Origin: Schizophyllum amplum
Taxonomy: Eukaryota; Basidiomycota; Agaricomycetes; Agaricales; Schizophyllaceae
DNA length: 64,000 bases
NCBI GenBank assembly: GCA_007026445.1
Contig: VDMD01000091.1
Span: 35,777 to 99,776 of the forward strand
Reading direction: 5' to 3'
In this document: positions 19,501 through 64,000 of the stretch, piece by piece
Layout of the letters: each line of letters opens with the position of its first letter
How positions within the stretch are numbered: position 1 is the stretch's first letter
The notes under the pieces: generated by a model
The model's input: the letters and a program-made list of their open reading frames with translations, nothing else
Database searches by the model: none
What the model was told of the DNA's origin: nothing
Program-made: the position numbers and the translations under genes

Positions 19501-19680
19501 GAAGGTCGCTCGGCAAGTGAGATGAAGTGCGGCGAAGGCGCGGTCATACAGCTCAGGGCCGCGATGGGCATATGTTTCTGACCGGTCATATAACGATTCT
19601 TATTACAGCGACGCACTGACCAGTTCTGCCGCTCTCATTCTCTTCCCCATCGCCCATCCTCTCCTCAAAACTTCCCCATC
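16575..19680. other. Gene-free 3.1-kb stretch
   Basis: No frame could be matched to a family or assembled into phased exons. Small features are a GGACAGCTTGC tandem at 16620-16645, two copies of CTTCTGTGCACAATGG (about 19318 and 19350) and two copies of GCTCGGCAAGTGAGATGAAG (19486-19530) just before the F-box gene. Confidence 0.4.
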
Positions 19681-19689
19681 GCCCATACC

Positions 19690-21420
19690 ATGCACTCGCC
19701 GAACCCGCTCGATATCGCAGAACTCGTCGACATCATTCTCGAATATCTCAGCAAGGACGACGCATCTGTGACTCTCGCCCGCGCACGATGCGTTAACCGG
19801 CTGTGGTGCTCCTCCGCAACCCACCGACTCTGGCGGAAAGTTGATCTGTCTGCCGTGCTGAGGCTGCTGCCGCGGGACGCATGGTTCATTTACGAGGTGC
19901 GTCACCTGTTTGCTATGCAGAGTCTTACTGATATCTCACAACAGGACGACGGACGCGACGACGAAGACTCCGACGGCGACATCCAGATGGACAAGCAAGG
20001 AAGTCGGCACTTGATTGCTTACGAGCGCGGCGAGTACAGCCACCGATCGGATGACTTCGAGAACCCCACATTCGTACGTCGCACTACCCGCCGCCGGACG
20101 TTCCTCGATCCTGAAAAACTCTCACTCATCCAGATCCTCCGCCGCCTGATCACCGAAGACGAGTGGTCTGCGCTGCTCCCATTCACGCGTCACGTCAAGT
20201 TTCTGTACACAATCGGCGGTCCCGGCGATCCCGACTCCCTTCCCAGCCTCGTCGGCATCAGCTTCAAAGCCGTCGTCGTCTACGACACTCTCTCGCGCTG
20301 TCTCCCCTCATTTCAGCTCTTCCCCCAGCTCGAGGAGCTCGTCGTGCTAGACTACGGAAACAATCCCGAGTCCATGCGCTTATTCGACAGCGACGTGCTC
20401 CGCGTCATGCGCATGGAGATGGACACCACAGACGGTGACGCTGCAGCGTGCCTCGACGCGTTGACGGACGTCAAATACGGCGTTTGCCCCGTTCAATATG
20501 TTGTCATCGACAACAGCCTGGTCGACCACTCCGACGTCTCCGCTCCGAGCGCCCTCGGCAACGCGTTGAGAGCGTGCGACTGCCTCCAGCGCTTGCACAT
20601 CGACAGCCTGCAGATGGAGGGCTGGTGTACTGTTGCTGCGATGCCCTTCCTGACCGAGCTCTTCGTTGTCGACATGGGCACCTACTGCGACCTCCTTCCC
20701 TCATCCGCCTTCATCCCCGCCCCTCTCGCGTTCCCGAGCTTGCGGGTACTTTGTTTGGAACTGGGAATGGATATATTCTATCTTTCCTTGCTACTCCGCA
20801 TGCGCGACGGCATGCCATGGGAGCTCGAAAAGCTGCACATGCCCGCGCAGGTCGACGTTTGTGGCAACTCTGCACGCACGATGTTCAACTTGATCCAAGC
20901 CTACGTCTCCGCCGGAACTTTGGAGAGCCTCATCATCAATTGCGCCGCGGAGCCCGAGACCGACTTGCCATTCGACTGCATCGAGCCGCTCCTCGGGTTT
21001 TCGAACCTCACCTTCCTGTACGTGTACACCTCATTCGACTGCGAGCCGCATTTTCAGGCTCTCGACCGCTGGGAGGTGAACATCATCGCGGGCAGCTTCC
21101 CGCGGATGCGCGAGCTCCACTTGTCGCTCAAGTTCCCCGTGACGTCGCTGGTCGCGTTCGCCCAGTTTTGTCCAGAGCTGGAGGCGCTCAAGGTCGGCGC
21201 GTTTGTTGACCGTGACCTTGACTATGTAGACGCGGCAGCTACTCGCGCAGGCCGGCCTTGCCAGAGCATGAAGCTCAAGCGCTTAGATGTAGGCGCCAGA
21301 CTTCATGAACAGGAGGGTCCCGAGAAGGACGCGGCCGTCGCTTTCCTGAAGGGTATCTTCCCGGCGGCGCGCTTCGTCCATTCAGACGACATAATTCGGG
21401 GAGGTGAATATTTCAAGTAG
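19690..21420 (+). CDS. F-box-like protein X1, ~560 aa
   Basis: Predicted substrate receptor of an SCF-type ubiquitin ligase. Residues 8-55 fit a diverged F-box (LDIAELVDIILEYLSKDD, then CVNRLWCSSATHRLWRKVDL). The rest is a long alpha/beta region with Leu-rich segments like the LRR-type tails of fungal F-box proteins (for example LEELVVLDY, LRRLI, FLTELFVVDMGTY). A 48-nt GT-AG intron at 19897-19944 follows FIYE and is in frame; its removal gives about 560 aa. The related minus-strand gene at 31281-30418 has an intron at exactly the same place, which supports it. The start at 19690 sits directly before the F-box. Downstream, from 21600, a repeat block follows. Confidence 0.8.
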   Translation: MHSPNPLDIAELVDIILEYLSKDDASVTLARARCVNRLWCSSATHRLWRKVDLSAVLRLLPRDAWFIYEVRHLFAMQSLTDISQQDDGRDDEDSDGDIQMDKQGSRHLIAYERGEYSHRSDDFENPTFVRRTTRRRTFLDPEKLSLIQILRRLITEDEWSALLPFTRHVKFLYTIGGPGDPDSLPSLVGISFKAVVVYDTLSRCLPSFQLFPQLEELVVLDYGNNPESMRLFDSDVLRVMRMEMDTTDGDAAACLDALTDVKYGVCPVQYVVIDNSLVDHSDVSAPSALGNALRACDCLQRLHIDSLQMEGWCTVAAMPFLTELFVVDMGTYCDLLPSSAFIPAPLAFPSLRVLCLELGMDIFYLSLLLRMRDGMPWELEKLHMPAQVDVCGNSARTMFNLIQAYVSAGTLESLIINCAAEPETDLPFDCIEPLLGFSNLTFLYVYTSFDCEPHFQALDRWEVNIIAGSFPRMRELHLSLKFPVTSLVAFAQFCPELEALKVGAFVDRDLDYVDAAATRAGRPCQSMKLKRLDVGARLHEQEGPEKDAAVAFLKGIFPAARFVHSDDIIRGGEYFK

Positions 21421-55904: not shown

Positions 55905-57838
55905 TGTATATAGCACAACTCAGACTCTGATAGCAGGATGCTCAGAAATGAGATCCCCCGCGATCTCCCGGCAAATTCCGATCCTCTCAGCTCTGACATT
56001 GCCCCCCTGCGCACCTTCGAGACAAATCAAGAAAAATAGTAGATGACTACTTACACGTCGAACCAGGGGGTTTCTGTGTGGTAGTAACTTGCAGAACACT
56101 TCGTGGTAGTATCGGTGTCTCTTAGCGACACCATTTCGTCTCTACCCTGTAATGGCGGACAAACCATTACACGAAGTGCCATCGTTTGTGACCTGTAGAA
56201 AGTTCACGGCCCGCGCCCCCCGGTGCATGTGCTCGCAGGCCTGGGCCTGAAACGGTCAGGGACGGATTGGGACTTGGGAAAATTTGCGTGACCATCTTGC
56301 CTTCCGCCGCGACGGTGCCGTAGCAGCGAGCTCCAGCCTTACACTGACCCGTGCAATCGATGGCAGCATTGAGGCGAAGGCTCACTGCCTTCTAGGCTGC
56401 GGGTTGAAGCCGTCCACGGCGCGTCGTTCGAGCGTGTTCGTCGGCATGGGTCGTTGAGGCATACTCACGCTTCAAGGTGCGTTCTCACTCCGACCAATCC
56501 CAGGTCAAACTAACAGTCACCTTAGCCATAGACATGATCATGAAGAAGTCAAGGTCGTTCTAGCTAGGGTTACATACCGTCGTGTTCGATATGCGGCGGG
56601 TGCCGCCGCCGGCCCTCCCTCGCCTCCTTACCCACCATTGGCCGGGGCCGTATTGAGATATCCCTTGTAGTTGCAGGGGGTCGTATTCCAATATTGCCCA
56701 GCTGTACTGAGTCAGTAATTGCTGGGCAATATAGAGATACGACCCCGGGGTATTTGTAATCTCAGGCTCCTTGAATTATGTACGTTACTATTCATTGTTA
56801 ATGGTCAATAGGTGGTATTTCATGGGTATTATACATACAAATGAGGCGTACGTCGTACAAATGGTCCGCGGACCGTTTTCCCGCCTCCCGCTCGCCGCCC
56901 GCGCTGTCGCCGCCGTCGTTTCAGATGCCCGATATGGCCACGCCGCCGCCGCCGCTGCTACCGCCCGCGCTTCCCGCCGCCGCGTGCACCCGCTTCCCGC
57001 CGCCGCTTCCCGTCGCCCTCGCCCTCGCTTCCCGCCACCGCCAGCGCGTCAAGCCCGCACAGTGCCCCCCGCGCTTCCCGTGCATCCCATCGATGCAGCG
57101 CACAACGACTCGCGCGGGCGTGCCACGCGTCTAACACCGCCCGCGCCACGCGTCTAGCACGCTGTGACCACGTACTTATATGTGCTGCACGCCGCGGACG
57201 CGCCTCTACGAGCGGGCCGCTCCGAGCTCACGCCTCGGCTGGGGAGCCAGGACACCCGAAATGCCTTCGGGATGTCCATGGCGTGGACGTCACGCACGGG
57301 GCCCGCGAGTACGGCGACGAGGCGAAGGCCATATGCGCACATTGCGTCTCGTGCTCGTTGGTTCTGATCGCGCCGCAGAGCGGGGGCAAGGCGGCAGATG
57401 TGGGTGGAGAGGGGGGATGTGGATGGAAGGGTGAAGGGCGGGCAGGCGAGGGGGAAAGGGGTGGATAAAAATAGGGCGCGCGGGGGGATGCAAGAGCGCG
57501 CTCCCGTTGGGGAACACTCTGTGCTCGTCGACGACCATCTGAGCTCGCTGTAGAGTTCTCAAATAGTCAGCACAATGCTTAAGTGGTGTTGTATGCGCGT
57601 ACCGTCTGCCTGAAGGACCGAGGCCTGCGCTTTGAGAAGGGGAGGGCGGGAAGACGCACGCCGATCGCCGGGCTGATCGTGTGTTGAAAATGTACATGCT
57701 TTGCGGAGGGAGGCGTGTGTGAAAGTAGCGGGCTAGTCATGAGCTCATTTGATATCTCGAAGGGGGATGTGAATGAGTGCAAGACCCCGCCCGAGATGGT
57801 CCAGGAGGTTGAACGCGGACTCTATCCACCTTACCCGC
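55905..57838. other. Gene-free stretch
   Basis: No supported gene. 56870-57150 is very GC-rich with open frames in several phases and no family resemblance. The foldback element at 56668-56753 is listed separately. Confidence 0.4.
56668..56753. repeat. Foldback/MITE-like element, copy 2
   Basis: Imperfect hairpin. The left arm GGGGTCGTATTCCAATATTG and right arm CAATATAGAGATACGACCCC are separated by GCTGTACTGAGTCAGTAATT. The sequence is shared with 40-110 at the other end of the window. Confidence 0.65.
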
Positions 57839-57856
57839 GGTTCTGCTAGCAGAACC
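57839..57856. repeat. 18-bp perfect palindrome
   Basis: GGTTCTGCTAGCAGAACC, immediately followed by another GGTTCTGCT half-site at 57855-57863. It may be a protein binding site or a chance hairpin. Confidence 0.5.
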
Positions 57857-57960
57857 GGTTCTGCTTCAGCCTGGCACTGCTTAAAAATAGATTATTCCGA
57901 AATTTAACCGTCTGACGTCTCTCACCCGTCAAGCCTCACCCCCTTTCTCGGGCTTACCTC

Positions 57961-58150
57961 GGCTCTTCTGATCGCTGTCGGGGCCGTCTCGTTGTCGCTC
58001 AACGTGGTCCGGACGCTTGCCGCCGCCCCATAGGCATCTCGCGGGTCTGAATCGGGGCTCTTCTGATTGCTGTCGGGGCCGTCTCGTCCTCGCTCAACGC
58101 GGTCCGGATGCTTACCGCCGCCCAATAGGCATCTCGCGGGTCCGAATCGG
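57961..58150. repeat. 95-bp tandem duplication
   Basis: Two units beginning GGCTCTTCTGATCGCTGTCG (57961) and GGCTCTTCTGATTGCTGTCG (58056), ending CATCTCGCGGGTCCGAATCG. Read on minus, each encodes PDSDPRDAY(W/G)AA..(R)T.LS(E/D)(D/N)ETAPTAIRRA-like peptide, but the 95-bp period puts the two copies in different frames. The flanking 58170-58720 has degenerate TCTGGGTAC and GCTAATCATGCG repeats and no clear gene. Confidence 0.7.
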
Positions 58151-58969
58151 GGTATCCTCGCACGCACTCGATGAGCATCTCAAAGGGGTGTATCTGACCT
58201 GGCTTGGCATGCGTACTGGATCTGCCTCCATCAGCCACGGTGTGTGCGGCACCGCTCATTGTACTGCTTATGGCAGTGCTCATTGTACTTCTTACGGTAC
58301 TGCTTACAACCTCGGCACTACTGACATGTATATGGCTTTGGCACTCCTAATCATGCATTGTGCGCATCTGACTAGGCCAGTCGTCAACATATTATTAGCA
58401 TGTGCGCTTGAAGTCAATATACACCATTCAATAGCCCTTCTCCCTGTTGCCATCTGGATCTTGCAGTCAAAGCCTGCTTATCTGGGTACTGGATCTGCAT
58501 CCACTAGCCGACTGATAGGCGTCCTGCAGGTCCAGATTGGGTCATCTGACGATTGCTCGGCATCTCAAAGGTATGCTTCCCGATGCGCTACATTGACGTC
58601 TCACCCTGCATATCACGCTTATCTGGGTACCCGATCCTGATGTGTGGGTACTCATGCACAAGCTAATCACTCAAGCTAATCATGCGCGGGTACCCAATCT
58701 GCGTCTATAAGCCGTAACAGCGACTCTGGGCCTGCTGATGCGCGGATACTCATGCGCAAGCTAATCATTCAGGCTAATCATGCGCTGATGTACATCTACC
58801 ATGTTACCGCTGATAACCTGCTAACGGAGATGATGTCTATGTCGCATCCCATGTACGCCAGTCGATGCTCAGCTGATGCGCTTATGCAGCGGATACGGAA
58901 GGGGCTGCCGATGTTGACGCTTGCGCCGAGCGCTGCCTGACGTTAGCGCACTAATGAGCAGCTGTTGGG

Positions 58970-59431
58970 CTAGACGCACCATAGCCTTGTCGTCCGCTGC
59001 TGCTGCCAAATGAGATGCCTTCCAGTCGGTCGTGGTGATTCCGTGGCGCTTGGCCGAGTCCAATGTCTCTGCAGCGTCCTGGTTCCCATTAGCGCACTGA
59101 TGAGCTGCGATCTGCGGAGGCGCACCTCGCCCGTTATCATCTCAGCTAACGAAGATGTCTTCCATTCTGTCGTGGTGATGCCTTTGCGCCTCGCTGACTG
59201 CCACTCCTTTACTGTGCTGATGGCCTTCTCCATGCGCTCCCGCAGCACATGCCACTCCTTCTGCTTGCTCCTCCTTTCCTTGAGCTCACGGCGTAGCAGC
59301 TCGGCTTCGATGTCCTGAGAGGCGTGAGCTGTGATCCCAGCAGGATGGAGGACACGAACAAACGACTTGCGGTTGGGGTGGTTGAACGCTTGCGCGAGCG
59401 CGCAGTCCGGGGCAGCACAAGTAAGACACAT
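58970..59431 (-). CDS. Small MCxxCx4C-coil protein A, ~138 aa
   Basis: First member of an array of small genes I do not recognise. Exon 1 (59431-59360) encodes MCLTCAAPDCALAQAFNHPN, with the family motif Met-Cys-x2-Cys-x4-Cys that could bind a metal ion. A 45-nt intron (59359-59315, GTTCGT...CAG, in frame) follows. Exon 2 (59314-58970) is a charged helix (DIEAELLRRELKERRSKQKE) and ISTVKEWQSARRKGITTTEW. About 120 bases that encode SARRKGITTTEWK...RSQLISAL are duplicated next door, at about 59057-58937 (SAKRHGITTTDWKASHLAAA), but in another frame. The protein therefore ends in unrelated sequence. It shares a 135-bp divergent promoter with gene B. Function unknown; a soluble dimer is inferred. 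Confidence 0.6.
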   Translation of the reverse strand: MCLTCAAPDCALAQAFNHPNRKSFVRVLHPAGITAHASQDIEAELLRRELKERRSKQKEWHVLRERMEKAISTVKEWQSARRKGITTTEWKTSSLAEMITGEVRLRRSQLISALMGTRTLQRHWTRPSATESPRPTGRHLIWQQQRTTRLWCV

Positions 59432-59490
59432 GAGCGCCGGGGGATGGTGGTAAGAAGCAACCTGGGAGGCGTGAGAAAGCAGCCACACGA

Positions 59491-59501
59491 TTATTTAAGC
59501 C
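59491..59501. promoter_or_regulatory. TATA-like element in the A/B divergent promoter
   Basis: TTATTTAAGCC reads as TATA-like on both strands. It is about 60 bases from the ATG of gene A (minus) and 66-76 bases from the ATG of gene B (plus). Confidence 0.45.
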
Positions 59502-59566
59502 ATCAAGCCTTGATCGCATACGCTACCTGCCTTTATCATCCCACCATCACCACAACCCATCCGCCA

Positions 59567-59983
59567 ATGTGTGTTATCTGCACGAATCGAAAGTGTGAGG
59601 TCATTCGACTATTGAAATGCATGCTGCGCGCTGAAAAGGTGCAAGAATATGTGCGCGCTACAAGCTCAACACTAACGGTGTCCCTTAGACCCCAGCCAGT
59701 GTTGCCGAAGCCAGGCAGAAGGAACGCGGGAACATGGAACGGCTGGACCAGGAGCTATGCGAGATGCGCAAGGTCTTTAACGACCTTCACACCAGGTATC
59801 CCCGAGCGTTTTACGACACTGAGGACACGGATGCGAGGGACGCGGAGGAGAGGGCGGAGGGCGCCATGGCTGATGAGCCGCAGGGCAGAACGAATAGCAT
59901 TAACGGTCATGTAATCCTGTATGCTGCGCGCGTCTGCGAACAATCAGCTGCTGCTGCCAAGCGAGGTTCACCCACGCACCTTT
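59567..59983 (+). CDS. Small MCxxCx4C-coil protein B (3' end uncertain)
   Basis: Exon 1 (59567-59650) encodes MCVICTNRKCEVIRLLKCML and AEKVQEY, with the exact Met-Cys-x2-Cys-x4-Cys spacing of its neighbours. The best intron is 59651-59718 (GTGCGC...GGCAG, 68 nt), which splices in phase to KERGNMERLDQELCEMRKVF and then an acidic stretch (FYDTEDTDARDAEERAEGAM). The frame then stays open to 60522, running antisense through gene C and past the start of D. This is unlikely, so either the stop has been lost by an indel near 59900 or a further intron exists. The end given here is simply where gene C begins on the other strand. Confidence 0.55.
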
Positions 59984-60281
59984 TACGCCCCACCAGCGTT
60001 GAACCACTCCTCATTCCACTCGCTTATCGTCTTTCCCTGCGCCTTTGCTGTCTCCCACGAGCTGGTGGCCTCTCTCAAGTTCGCAAGCACCTTTTTTCCA
60101 ACTCGTACTGCTCCTGCGTCAGGCGCAATTGCTCCTCGAGCTGCAGCAGCTCCTGCACCTGTCGCATGCAGCACAGGTCAGATAAGCGGATGCTCCCCAC
60201 GCAAAGAACACGCACAAGGGATGCTTGCATTGGATACGCTCTTGCCAGATCGCAGTCGCGTTCGGCACAAGCAGGGCACAT
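59983..60281 (-). pseudogene. Small MCxxCx4C-coil protein C, frameshifted in an A-run
   Basis: Exon 1 (60281-60216) encodes MCPACAERDCDLARAYPMQA with the family Cys motif. A 57-nt intron (60215-60159) is followed by a coiled-coil-like VQELLQLEEQLRLTQEQYEL. After a run of six A the frame soon meets TGA (stop at 60075-60077). One more A would restore a continuation ending at 59983 with SSWETAKAQGKTISEWNEEW, which resembles KEWQSARRKGITTTEWK of gene A. So this is a one-base loss in a homopolymer: either a young pseudogene or a sequence error. It is arranged head-to-head with gene D, 100 bases apart. Confidence 0.6.
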
Positions 60282-60381
60282 GGTGGCGCAAGGCAGAATG
60301 TGGCGAGCGGTGTCATCTTATTGGCAATATGCGACCGACGCACATCCCTTTTCCCGATCGTCCATCTCATCCGCTTTCACC

Positions 60382-60743
60382 ATGTCGACGTGCGCTGTCA
60401 ACCAACAACTGCGCTCTATGATTCCAGTCGGGCACGGTAGAAGCTCCCTGCCTATCCTACCTCTTACACCTCTGACAGCCTTGTCCAGCCTCTCTGCCAT
60501 GTGGCGCAAGCCATCATTGTAAAGCGCGAGCTGCTCAAGCGGCTGGAGCAGGACCTGGAGGATGTGCAGGAATCTGTGAACAACCTCGAGAGAATGTACT
60601 CGGATGTGCTGTATTATCCTCTGAATTGTGATTATGACGAGGAGGAGGATGACGAGGAGGAAGACGGCGACAGCAACGAGGAGCAGGAGGAGCAGCATCA
60701 GATTGTTCGGGAAGAAGACAGGGCGGCGGACGCGCAGGCGTAA
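60382..60743 (+). CDS. Small coil/acidic-tail protein D, ~95 aa
   Basis: Probable member of the array with a weakened motif. Exon 1 (60382-60436) reads MSTCAVNQQLRSMIPVGH. A 74-nt intron (60437-60510) joins in phase to AIIVKRELLKRLEQDLEDVQ and ESVNNLERMY. The tail is strongly acidic (CDYDEEEDDEEEDGDSNEEQ) and ends DRAADAQA. The second exon clearly looks coding; the first exon and intron are the best phased solution but unproven, since it has only one of the three motif cysteines. It runs convergently with gene E. Confidence 0.5.
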
Positions 60744-60850
60744 ACATTATGTATCTTCAACATCGCTTACAGCGTGTATATCTGCACGCATGCGCATGAG
60801 CGCGCTCACTCTCTGGTCGCCCGTGAGCAGCGTGCTTGCTTTCGGACAAG

Positions 60851-61127
60851 TCACTCACAGCGGATGCTACGAGCCTTCTTATCCACGTACTCCCTGACCG
60901 CCTTCTGGTAGTAGTCAATCTCATCGCGGACGTTGGCCTCCTCCTCCTCGCGCTTCTTTCTGGTGGCCCGCATCTTGCGCCACTTGTCCTCGACGCGGAC
61001 GTATTCCTGATCTCGTTGTCAGCTGCGCACCCAAGATCCACGCGCGCCCTCTACGCACGCTGATGTGCACTTGCGGTCCTATGAACTGCGCCATCTCACA
61101 CGTCTTCTTGTCACAAAACTGGCACAT
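60851..61127 (-). CDS. Small MCxxCx4C-coil protein E, ~74 aa
   Basis: Exon 1 (61127-61059) encodes MCQFCDKKTCEMAQFIGPQV and HIS. A 52-nt GT-AG intron (61058-61007) is followed by exon 2 (61006-60851), EYVRVEDKWRKMRATRKKRE, EEEANVRDEIDYYQKAVREY and VDKKARSIRCE. This is a clean two-exon gene with a very short, highly charged helix, and one of the best examples of the family layout. A TATATAAGG on minus (61223-61213) lies about 90 bases upstream of the ATG. The 5' region overlaps the open 3' end of gene F. Confidence 0.7.
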
Positions 61128-61547
61128 GCCGGAGGTCGCGGTAGCTGCGATTGCTGTTGGTCCGACGCGATGGTGGTGGTAAGAGACAAGATGGGTTTCA
61201 CGTTGCATCCTTCCTTATATATTTGTGCTCCCCCTCCATCCCGATCTGTCACTGGTCTATGGATCGGCGCTCGAGGTGCTTTCAGCGCCGACACCCCTCC
61301 TGTTCGCAGCCTTCCAAGCCTTATGCGCTCCTTATACATCGCAATCTTGCTCTCTTCCTCCTTGTTTTCCATCTCCACACGGGTTCTGACTTGGCGTATG
61401 CCCTCGAGGGCGCGCATGGCGTACACGTAGTGCTGCGCTGCCCATCAGCAGCGTACAGGCAACCTTTCGGCCACGCACATAAAGGCTCACGGGTTCCGTC
61501 ATCGTTTGCTGCAGCTTGCATTCCGCGTCGTAGCATTGATTGCACAT
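61079..61547 (-). CDS. Small MCxxCx4C-coil protein F, up to 136 aa
   Basis: Exon 1 (61547-61491) encodes MCNQCYDAECKLQQTMTEP. A 58-nt intron (61490-61433) splices in phase to HYVYAMRALEGIRQVRTRVE and MENKEEESKIAMYKERIRLG, again a charged helix. The frame then continues without a stop through Gly/Pro/Thr-rich sequence to 61079, across the TATA box and the first 49 bases of gene E. The last 60 or so residues are therefore doubtful; a missed intron or lost stop is possible. Neighbour G ends 44 bases upstream of this start. Confidence 0.6.
61213..61223 (-). promoter_or_regulatory. TATA box of gene E
   Basis: TATATAAGG on minus, about 90 bases before the ATG at 61127, followed by a CTTACCACCACCAT leader. 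Similar TTACCACCAT leaders precede genes A and B. Confidence 0.45.
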
Positions 61548-61590
61548 CTTTGACGGCTCGAGATGATGGTGGTCTAAGGCAAGATGGAGC

Positions 61591-61926
61591 TCAAGTGCAC
61601 TCCTCGATATCAGGGACCAACAGCATGCCTTCCACCTCGGCCTCCTCCTCCAGCTCTTCGGCTTCCTCGTCATCTCCCTCTCCCGACGCAAACACCTCTG
61701 GACAGAGCTCTGCCAGGTTTTTCATTCGCACCGCCAAGTGGCCCCGCTCCAGGTACCGCTCGCACAGCGCCTTCTTTTCTGCTTCGTATTGCTCCCATAG
61801 CTCGGCGTACGTCTGCCTGCGTTAGGCAGTCACCCAGGGCGATCTGACGCTCACCATTCCCATCTCGAGCACTTGGGTAAGCACTTTGCGCCTTCCGCAC
61901 TCGCTGCTGTCGCAAACGTGGCACAT
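61591..61926 (-). CDS. Small MCxxCx4C-coil protein G, ~97 aa
   Basis: Exon 1 (61926-61855) encodes MCHVCDSSECGRRKVLTQVL and EMGM. A 42-nt GT-AG intron (61854-61813) joins in phase to exon 2 (61812-61591), TYAELWEQYEAEKKALCERY and LERGHLAVRMKNLAELCPEV. An acidic region follows (DDEEAEELEEEAEVEG), then PDIEECT and a stop. The exon 2 start TYAELWEQYE parallels TYTELLHACEEEEE of gene H, with the intron at the identical position after GM. A CTAAATAG TATA-like site lies about 55 bases upstream. This is a strong two-exon model. Confidence 0.75.
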
Positions 61927-62065
61927 GGCTATGCGGTTTCAATGGGTGTGGGAAGCAGGTTGCGTTTCCCTAAAGGGTCTATTTAGCCACTCCTAAATCT
62001 CCCACGGCTGGCACCACCTCGCCTCGCTTGCCGATCCCCTCACAATCCTGCCCACCCTCCTCCCC

Positions 62066-62460
62066 TCACAGATCCTGCCCACCCTCCTCCACCCACTTGT
62101 TCAGCGCGCCCGCGCCTTCTCCGGCTGCCATTTCCTCTTCATCGGTGGCCATGCGACCGGTTTCGGTGGAGCACGCATGCTGCAACCCGTCCACGGCGTC
62201 TTCATCGTTGCGCAGCATCTCCATGTAAATGTCCCCCCAGCGTGTGCGCATCTTGTTGAGTGTGACAATCCTTCCGGACGCCTTTTTCCACAGCTCCTCT
62301 TCTTCCTCGCATGCGTGCAGCAGCTCGGTGTATGTCTTTTCCAGTCCGTCAGCCACAGTTTCCGCCGGAGCTCAGCCGTCTCGCGCACCATTCCTAACAC
62401 CGTGACCTTGCTCAGCAGCTCGTAATCCGGACATCCTGCAGTTGGACAGATCAGGCACAT
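62066..62460 (-). CDS. Small MCxxCx4C-coil protein H, ~113 aa
   Basis: Exon 1 (62460-62389) encodes MCLICPTAGCPDYELLSKVT and VLGM. A 53-nt intron (62388-62336) joins in phase to exon 2 (62335-62066), TYTELLHACEEEEELWKKAS and GRIVTLNKMRTRWGDIYMEM. It then has an acidic segment (RMATDEEEMAAGEGAG) and ends KWVEEGGQDL. The Cys spacing, intron position after GM, and TY-x-EL start of exon 2 match gene G, so these two are closest relatives. The promoter contains the 74-bp block shared with gene I, starting 81 bases upstream of the ATG. Confidence 0.75.
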
Positions 62461-62540
62461 GTTGGGCGATGTGTGCGGTAGGATGGACGCGGGAAGAAAG
62501 AGCGAGTGTTTGTGGCGTCGGCTTTCACCTGGTCGCACCT

Positions 62541-62614
62541 CAAAAGTTCAAAAGTCAAAGTCCCGCTGTCCAAATCTCCCTCGAGGGCGTTTGCACCTAG
62601 GGACTTTGAATTTT
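62541..62614. promoter_or_regulatory. 74-bp dyad promoter block, copy 1 (gene H)
   Basis: Reads CAAAAGTTCA ... CAAAGTCCC ... CCCTCGAGGG ... GGGACTTTG AATTTT. CAAAGTCCC/GGGACTTTG and CCAAA/TTTG form nested inverted arms around CCCTCGAGGG. Copy 2 at 63038-63111 has the same length and order with about 15 differences. Confidence 0.75.
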
Positions 62615-62710
62615 GGCGGTCTCCCGGCTCATCCTGGACCCATGTGCCTGGGCGCTCATAATGGCATTGACTGATCACTACCCGCCCCTCTTCCGATACC
62701 CCGCAGATTA

Positions 62711-62985
62711 CTATCCTTCCCGCTCCAACAACCGCTCGGGTGACCCGCCCGTCTCGTACTGCTCACGCATCATCACCTTCTCACAGCTCAACAAGTGATT
62801 CTCCGTTCTGATCTCTGCGTTCAAGGCCTCCAAGCGCTGGCACTTTTCCCACAGCGCGCTCAATCGCTGCCAAGTCGTCAGCCATGTCAGGCGCTTTCAC
62901 CGCTGCACACCTGTTCATACGTCCCGCTGCTGCTCTCGCGTCCGCAGTGCGAGCACACGAACCGTTCAGGGTTGTTGACCGGCAT
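62711..62985 (-). CDS. Small CxxC-coil protein I, 76 aa
   Basis: Exon 1 (62985-62911) encodes MPVNNPERFVCSHCGRESSS and GTYEQ. It has a CxxC pair but not the N-terminal MC start of its neighbours. A 44-nt intron (62910-62867, GTGTGC...GGCAG) joins in phase to exon 2 (62866-62711), RLSALWEKCQRLEALNAEIR and TENHLLSCEKVMMREQYETG, ending LLEREG. A regular heptad-like Leu pattern suggests a coiled coil. The ATG inside the intron (MADDLAAIERAV) gives a competing frame with fewer family features. The second copy of the shared 74-bp promoter block begins 53 bases upstream. Confidence 0.7.
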
Positions 62986-63037
62986 GGACGGCTTGTGATG
63001 AGCGTGAGGAACAAGGTGGTGCTTGCTGCGCATCGGC

Positions 63038-63111
63038 CAAAAGTTGAACATTCAGAGTCCTTCTGTCCAAACGTCCCTCGAACGCGTTTGGATGTAGGGA
63101 CTTTGAATTTT
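63038..63111. promoter_or_regulatory. 74-bp dyad promoter block, copy 2 (gene I)
   Basis: CAAAAGTTGAACATTCAGAG, then CCAAACGTCCCTCGAACGCG TTTGG, then GGGACTTTGAATTTT. Its inner dyad CCAAACG...CGCGTTTGG is even more symmetric than in copy 1. Confidence 0.75.
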
Positions 63112-63185
63112 CAGACACATCGCCGGATTGATAAACATCAGCTGATTGATATCACCCCCTATCCACCTTATCGCCCTGCATGCGA

Positions 63186-63595
63186 CTATCGCTCTTCCTC
63201 GTCGCTCAACTCGTGGTCCTCAGTATCTTGCCCTCCTTTTGTCTGCGCGCTGGACTCGCTCGACTTGCCCTTTTCGACATTTTCGGTATCCGTCCCTCCC
63301 GCATTCTCCTCCTCCTCTTCCTCCTCCTCCTCCTCCTCCTCCTCCTCAGTCTCCGTTTCTGGCTCGTACTTGTCGACCATCTGCCTCATCTCGTCCTGCA
63401 GGCGCTTGTTGTGCCGACGAAGCTCCTCGTTGGTTCTTTCGAGGCGCCGGTAACTTTCCGCCTTTACTCGCGCACCCAAAGTCAGTAATCCTCTCCCGCT
63501 CACGTGAGCAACATGCGCACCAGGTTGTCGTAGTCAGTCCGCCTTACGCTGCCGGCCTGAGCGCGCACCTCTCCGTTTCCTTGATCACCAGGCAT
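63186..63595 (-). CDS. Small coil/acidic protein J, ~119 aa
   Basis: Exon 1 (63595-63504) encodes MPGDQGNGEVRAQAGSVRRT and DYDNLVRMLL. A 50-nt intron (63503-63454, GTGAGC...AAAG) joins in phase to exon 2 (63453-63186), TYRRLERTNEELRRHNKRLQ and DEMRQMVDKYE, a classic coiled-coil pattern. A run of fourteen Glu and an acidic tail ending ELSDEEER follow. No Cys motif is present. The intron and the TY start of exon 2 link it to genes G and H, so it may be a member that lost or replaced its Cys exon. Its ATG is only six bases from an ATG opening gene K on plus. Confidence 0.65.
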
Positions 63596-63601
63596 CACCG
63601 T

Positions 63602-64000
63602 ATGCGCACTTGTGAGGTGTGTTTGGGCGGTTGTGATGGATGTGGACGGGAACAACCCGCTTTGTCAATAGTTTCCCACGCTCCCCGCTACCTACACGGG
63701 TCAATCACCTCGCACTCCAGCCAAGCGGTGCGCCCACCCTCTTCCTCTCGTCATAGCAAGCCGTCCAATTACTCTCCCGCCATTCCCCCGCGCAGGTTCA
63801 GTCCAGCGTCGCCGATGGCACACGATGATCAGCCCGGTGACGCAGACGAGCCGTGCATCCCTGCGTATGTGCGCCCCCGGCATTGCCACCCCGACGCGGT
63901 GATCACCAAACCCTTGGATATGCTTGATGCGCAGGCGTACGCCCTGACCCGTCTGCGGGAGGCGTTCAAGGGACAGGAAGCCCAGATTCAGTCGCTTCGA
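63602..64000 (+). CDS. Candidate array member K, runs off the window
   Basis: A frame open from ATG 63602 to the window end (133 codons). It begins MRTCEVCLGGCDGCGREQPA, with four cysteines, and has a second ATG at 63815 (MAHDDQPGDADEPCIPAYVR). It continues PRHCHPDAV and then a helix-like AQAYALTRLREAFKGQEAQI. The 63815 start leaves room for a pyrimidine-rich leader (63720-63810) and is the safer choice. The 63602 start would keep a Cys cluster but leaves six bases between it and gene J. Only the N-terminal part is visible. Confidence 0.45.
   Translation, partial: MRTCEVCLGGCDGCGREQPALSIVSHAPRYLHGSITSHSSQAVRPPSSSRHSKPSNYSPAIPPRRFSPASPMAHDDQPGDADEPCIPAYVRPRHCHPDAVITKPLDMLDAQAYALTRLREAFKGQEAQIQSLR

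Follow-up and report, generated by a model that had tools for sequence, protein, structure and literature searches.

What kind of genes make up a tight array of tiny reading frames toward the end of a fungal contig, and what could their products do together? The window analyzed here is a 64-kb stretch (bases 35777-99776 of contig C301, which has 99,776 bases) from a genome of 49.65 Mb in 309 contigs, and the species name on the proteins returned by our searches gives the host as Schizophyllum amplum, an agaric of the Schizophyllaceae. The array in it is a new gene family with a constant cysteine (Cys) motif and a constant intron position, and represents one version of a set of about eleven tiny genes (A to K), most of them with a single intron and so far seen in S. 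amplum only. A first-pass annotation of this DNA had proposed an undescribed family of this layout, and motif counts, gene models, exon junctions and database nulls all agree with that proposal.

A cysteine-start gene family under purifying selection

The pattern Met-Cys-x2-Cys-x4-Cys has seven matches in the window, all at 59402-62460, where each of the seven starting peptides quoted by the first-pass annotation was found; 0.08 matches were expected, and 100 shuffles gave two at most. Across the whole genome, at least 167 starts carry the pattern, compared with at least 68 for its reverse, and many of the lone matches outside arrays may be due to chance, whereas those within arrays are not. 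In an alignment of 23 members, M1, C2, C5 and C10 are the sole invariant positions. Six Cys types can be told apart, namely alpha (genes A and C), beta (B and D), E, F, G and H, with I, J and K having an altered or absent Cys part. The four genes that had been singled out as variants do exist: D retains the third Cys alone (MSTC...), I has a single CxxC (CSHC), J has no Cys part, and K, in its C243 copy, is a single intronless open frame. Array proteins are about 70-125 amino acids (aa) long, K being longer.

Gene models came from a script in which six small profiles served to score spliced frames, at a threshold of 70 bits that excluded weaker members. The 93 models at or above 70 bits fall into 35 clusters (90% identity), four of which are frame-damaged single copies, hence 31 distinct genes. 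An intron of 42-68 nt after 19-28 codons had been described; each of the seven starts is indeed followed by a short intron and then by a helical exon 2, the intron lying within narrower limits, after 22-24 codons in the Cys types (18 in D) and with modelled lengths of 42-56 nt, or 57 nt in one model of gene C, for which the script places the exon border two codons downstream of an earlier model and of protein P0016. Three protein searches (8, 5 and 7 matches) yielded 17 different proteins, 16 of them named S. amplum, and the modelled exon junction is present in 14 of the 17. P0017 does not have it, P0001 uses an acceptor six bases upstream of the modelled one, and P0010 provides an exon 1 overlooked by the script. 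Annotation of the locus is imperfect, since P0001 and P0009 resemble fusions of two array genes each. P0015 (source 'lgn', longest contig 933 nt) is a spliced alpha protein whose unspliced frame hits a stop in the intron in the C242 and C223 copies, and we read it as transcript evidence, the source label 'lgn' not being defined in the database. The array genes are real genes.

Evolutionarily, the sequences lie far apart, and the first-pass annotation had taken this for a family under diversification; yet the ratio of nonsynonymous to synonymous change (dN/dS, Nei-Gojobori) stays below 0.6 in every one of 25 pairs chosen by hand (23 pairs at 0.12-0.42, the remaining two at 0.53 and 0.59; median 0.31), and among these pairs we saw no sign of diversifying selection. 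Sixteen of them were reused to compare codon positions and introns: over 1,410 codons, differences at positions 1, 2 and 3 numbered 416, 355 and 646, and identity was 66.5% in exons and 46.9% in introns. Given the uniformly low dN/dS, the third-position excess and the higher identity of exons than introns, the array proteins are under purifying selection, which in the hand-picked pairs extends to all six Cys types.

Databases gave little to compare these proteins with. A Pfam scan of the 23 members matched no family in more than two of them at E<=0.1 (best Med30, E 0.0029, under its cut-off), a profile search of the PDB gave no solid match (best E 0.021), Foldseek returned nothing under E 4, and our literature searches found no description of this Cys-helix family. 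The protein searches named no species besides S. amplum, although candidates needed shared 5-residue words and diverged or unannotated relatives may escape such searches; no relative of the array proteins is thus named beyond one mushroom species.

Spreading copies at chromosome ends

The genome holds at least four diverged versions of the gene set. The window version is present as six near-identical copies (C301, C164, C223, C243, C249 and C254), 98.5-99.4% identical to the window over the shared part; of the diverged versions, one lies in C243, C242 and C291, another in C30, C254 and C291, and the fourth in C275. Compared with the five other copies, that of the window carries seven private single-base insertions or deletions (in the A intron, C, D, E, F, the G intron and one intergenic position), an eighth single-base difference having been dropped as it lay at the alignment edge. 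Through these changes C, D and F do not read through in the window, and their frame breaks may be either assembly error or decay.

Copies share a sharp left end. The sequence at window position 57822 (Table 1) occurs eight times on seven contigs, and two of these ends carry little of the block (about 0.2 kb at C164:16881 and about 1.3 kb at C209). Five junction flanks (0.3-5.8 kb) and one more C243 stretch have no mutual similarity at E 1e-5, the C209 and first C164 flanks have no match within the flank set, and the flank at C243:24243 matches solely a telomeric element of C275. At C243 24243-24788 the block end is fused to a 547-bp piece of that element, with CCCTAA repeats on the outer side, and this site is a former chromosome end that is now internal. 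In all seven contigs the block heads toward the nearer contig end. A second block end, CCTATCCCTCG / CCTATCCCTCGTATTC (CCTATCC), is found at three sites (C242 14284, C223 2205265 and C249 230334), the C242 copy sitting within a beta gene. We read the common ends with unrelated flanks as chromosome ends assembled by block joining.

The array in C275 closes with a gene linked to I by a series of weak matches and reduced to its final exon; TTAGGG repeats start about 70 bp past that exon, followed by another element and by the terminal telomere at 134,313. The array thus stands beside telomere repeats in C275 and elsewhere in chromosome-end blocks, as a subtelomeric family does, and the window version is chromosome-end DNA that spreads. 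Placement is not terminal throughout, however, as C223:2206 kb and C254:172-178 kb hold array copies that sit 35-41 kb inside their contigs.

Several other features accompany these copies. The C275 element between the TTAGGG repeats and the telomere (all three within 131928-134313), which we take to be Penelope-like, has the end of a reverse-transcriptase-like open reading frame (ORF). Two inserts with direct repeats of about 9 bp occur in C254 and are absent from C30 and C291, one of 1.24 kb within a G gene (176068-177306) and one of 6.2 kb (179344-185555). A 158-bp minisatellite lies past an alpha/beta pair at C242 11444-12399 and at the end of C249. Within the window, a 74-bp direct repeat (82%) flanks gene I (62541-62614 and 63038-63111), and a long ORF at 19594-21417 resembles an F-box at a score below cut-off; none of 19 further long window ORFs that were tested matched Pfam.

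Table 1 Array genes and block ends in the window (window coordinates)
Feature	Position	Strand	Details
Left end of repeated chromosome-end block	57822-58902	+	Starts CTATCCACCTTACCCGCGG; 18-nt palindrome alongside; contains no array gene; 8 genome copies, unrelated flanks
Gene A, alpha class	58973-59431	-	Exon 1 59431-59360, intron 59359-59315; later exons per P0005
Shared upstream region, divergent pair A/B	59432-59566	.	135 bp
Gene B, beta class	59567-59890	+	Exon 1 59567-59638, intron 59639-59688; 3' end approximate; P0007 matches C243 copy
Gene C, alpha class	59983-60281	-	One-base frame break here, frame open in other copies; P0016
Shared upstream region, divergent pair C/D	60282-60381	.	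100 bp
Gene D, beta class without first two Cys	60382-60743	+	One-base frame break here
Gene E	60851-61127	-	Exon 1 69 nt, intron 52 nt
Gene F	61256-61547	-	Exon 1 69 nt, intron 46 nt; exon 2 interrupted here by a one-base break; 3' end set from length in other copies
Gene G, acidic tail	61591-61926	-	Exon 1 72 nt, intron 42 nt
Gene H, acidic tail	62066-62460	-	Exon 1 72 nt, intron 53 nt; P0011
Gene I	62711-62985	-	Exon 1 62985-62911, one CxxC; intron 44 nt; exon 2 from 62866; both exons matched in C275, exon 2 through a relative there
Second CTATCCACCTTA, perhaps an inner block end separating I from J	63159-63170	+	-
Gene J, acidic coil without Cys part	63186-63595	-	Exon 1 63595-63506, intron to 63453
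Gene K, helical, intronless	63815-64000	+	147 aa in C243 copy; cut by window end

Two kinds of chain and how they may assemble

An acidic tail is a feature of beta, G and H that alpha, E and F do not have. Past residue 65, net charge ranges from -2 to -22 among beta, G and H (10 proteins) and from -3 to +2 among alpha, E and F (12 proteins), and in beta, G and H exon 2 mostly begins with T. The coil had been described as often acidic, which suits beta (B and D), G, H and J but not alpha, E or F. Genomically, each of the 27 alpha models, which stand for 8 distinct genes, has a beta start back to back with it at 100-216 bp, three beta starts having been entered into this count by hand. Alpha and beta distances correlate (r 0.75 in a Mantel test on seven of the eight distinct pairs; 20 of 5,040 permutations were as high). 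Three of the four versions, namely those of the window, of C254/C291/C30 and of C275 (with H exon 1 taken from P0010), have E-F-G-H in that order and all pointing the same way; the remaining version departs from it. The proteins of the order-keeping versions are often just 40-65% identical. In addition, C254 has an extra G ahead of its pair. Past H in C275 come a relative of I that has both exons and some weaker relatives of J; C291 has a J relative ahead of its H, and stretches resembling K (30-34% identity) occur in C30 and C254.

Structurally, the AlphaFold models of an H (P0004) and an alpha (P0012) share one layout of a Cys loop, a short helix, a long helix and a short helix, the helices predicted at 12, 41 and 11 residues in H and 9, 46 and 10 in alpha. 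The predicted local distance difference test (pLDDT) score of the long helix is mostly 89-97 (73 in its final block in H), and the acidic tail of H is unordered. The intron site of H falls in the turn ahead of its long helix, that of alpha three residues inside the helix. Heptad periodicity reached at most 48 of 1000 shuffles in five of five beta and one of two H proteins. As regards the earlier suggestion of dimerising coils, long helices are predicted, but the heptad signal is clear just for beta and one of the two H; that these are dimerising metal-binding proteins is plausible.

The opposite-class pairs, the constant N-terminal thiols and the shared upstream region together suggest heteromers with matched expression. 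We posit, tentatively and with somewhat less than even confidence, that the gene set encodes heteromeric helical assemblies in which acidic-tailed chains (beta, G and H) pair with tail-less ones (alpha, E and F). Each chain would consist of the predicted N-terminal Cys loop, short helix, helix of 41-46 residues and short helix, and would pair with its partner along the long helix, while the shared upstream region may balance alpha against beta expression. With three Cys per chain, one short of the usual zinc site, two chains contributing six thiols would be the simplest full site, so that the Cys triads of paired N-termini might jointly hold a metal, likely zinc, or alternatively an iron-sulfur cluster with ThiC-like spacing; the acidic tail could then be the effector end. 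Our best guess is a regulatory role within the cell, because no chain starts with a signal-peptide-like hydrophobic stretch (by eye). A bolder form of this proposal, which we consider distinctly unlikely, would make the set a cassette of chromosome ends, spreading as one unit, whose roughly eleven genes supply matched subunits of a new helical complex capped by metal; a pairing code would join acidic-tailed to tail-less chains and be kept apart in each diverged version.

Several observations weigh against heteromeric pairing. The two ranges of tail charge meet (-2 in the C254 G, -3 in two alphas), joint duplication alone would yield the agreement of alpha and beta distances, and none of E, F, G and H is divergently paired. 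At 25-33 kb in C291 the genes run in another order (H, G-like, E, G-like, G and F ahead of the pairs), and the C275 version yielded no alpha. In the models, the Cys loop has a pLDDT of 55-73 and the predicted template modelling score (pTM) is low (0.44 and 0.54), and shuffle tests gave no significant hydrophobic periodicity in five alpha, two E, three F and three G proteins (0 of 13). Metal, moreover, cannot be required by all members, since D, I, J and K are without the full triad.

Rival accounts were weighed as well. The array could be an ordinary subtelomeric orphan family, copied by chromosome-end recombination and encoding simple homodimeric coils with no pairing code, as the blocks with common ends near contig ends, the six window-version copies, the frame-damaged copies, the insertions and the altered order in one version would lead one to expect; we rate this as possible though rather unlikely, as it does not anticipate alphas and betas back to back in every model, an E-F-G-H order that outlasts such protein divergence, or purifying selection on all six Cys types. 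The sharp end with eight copies and unrelated flanks, the CCTATCC end at three sites, once within a beta gene, and the two ends holding just about 0.2 and 1.3 kb of block (C164:16881 and C209) would also suit cargo or working parts of a mobile element ending CTATCC..., serving the element and not the fungus. We think this unlikely: the left junctions have no fixed target bases (by eye), the consistent heading toward the nearer contig end is what subtelomeric blocks would give, and no transposase turned up, although no search of the blocks was aimed at transposases. The far end of the block, needed to assess target repeats, was not found.

Divergent pairs and several diverged sets per genome recall the A mating-type loci, and hence a nonself-recognition repertoire (heterokaryon- or mating-like) in which pair alleles vary by strain and mixed pairs signal foreignness; lacking a homeodomain or other effector domain and any sign of diversifying selection, the array makes this very improbable. 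We are equally doubtful that the helices are anchored in membranes through palmitoylated N-terminal Cys. The presence of Cys at residues 2, 5 and 10 would permit it, but the strict x2/x4 spacing, the charged residues between and the absence of a basic or hydrophobic stretch (by eye) fit a metal better. Heteromeric pairing stays our tentative preference.

Relation to known systems

With genes this small, purifying selection and at least four diverged versions, the locus illustrates that a many-part gene complex can sit largely unseen at chromosome ends. Whether bidirectional genes encode obligate partners could readily be tested on the alpha/beta pairs, and the common block end is a handle on gene exchange between fungal chromosome ends.

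Among metal-binding motifs, the CCHC zinc knuckle is CX2CX4HX4C, its first three ligands spaced x2 and x4 as in the array, whereas the array has Cys for His at the third ligand and no invariant fourth ligand; it was ruled out because only M1, C2, C5 and C10 are invariant among the 23 members. Zn2Cys6 fungal transcription factors (CX2CX6C...CX2CX6C in one chain) were likewise ruled out, with three conserved Cys per array chain and no such Pfam match. The CX2CX4C site of the ThiC type binds [4Fe-4S]; the array motif differs in standing at the extreme N-terminus of a tiny helical protein with no enzyme domain. The three-Cys spacing of ThiC (PMC4389238) is identical to that of the array, and the likeness is one of spacing alone.

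As to setting and gene pairs, the closest likenesses come from other mushrooms and from mating-type loci. Basidiomycete mating-type complexes can hold several HD1/HD2 pairs, and several pairs per complex are a likeness to the array. Membership of this homeodomain group was ruled out, as no homeodomain family matched any of the 23 members at E<=0.1 in Pfam (HNF-1_N, PBC and Meis_PKNOX_N, at E 0.034-0.095, are not homeodomains). In Agaricus bisporus, chromosome ends carry subtelomeric variety-specific genes alongside RecQ helicases and elements of the Penelope-like kind (PMC7473861), and the variety-specific genes resemble the array in being lineage-restricted and beside telomeres, although the portion of that paper at hand describes no Cys-helix family or paired set. 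Compared with HD1/HD2 genes, the array has no homeodomain, encodes proteins of about 70-125 aa, includes the extra single genes E-I and lies near chromosome ends, and its pairing is only inferred. What the two share is divergent transcription, in HD1/HD2 (PMC4915694, PMC8545103) of genes whose products heterodimerise, and a divergent pair of this type with a short shared upstream region accompanies all 27 of the 27 alpha models.

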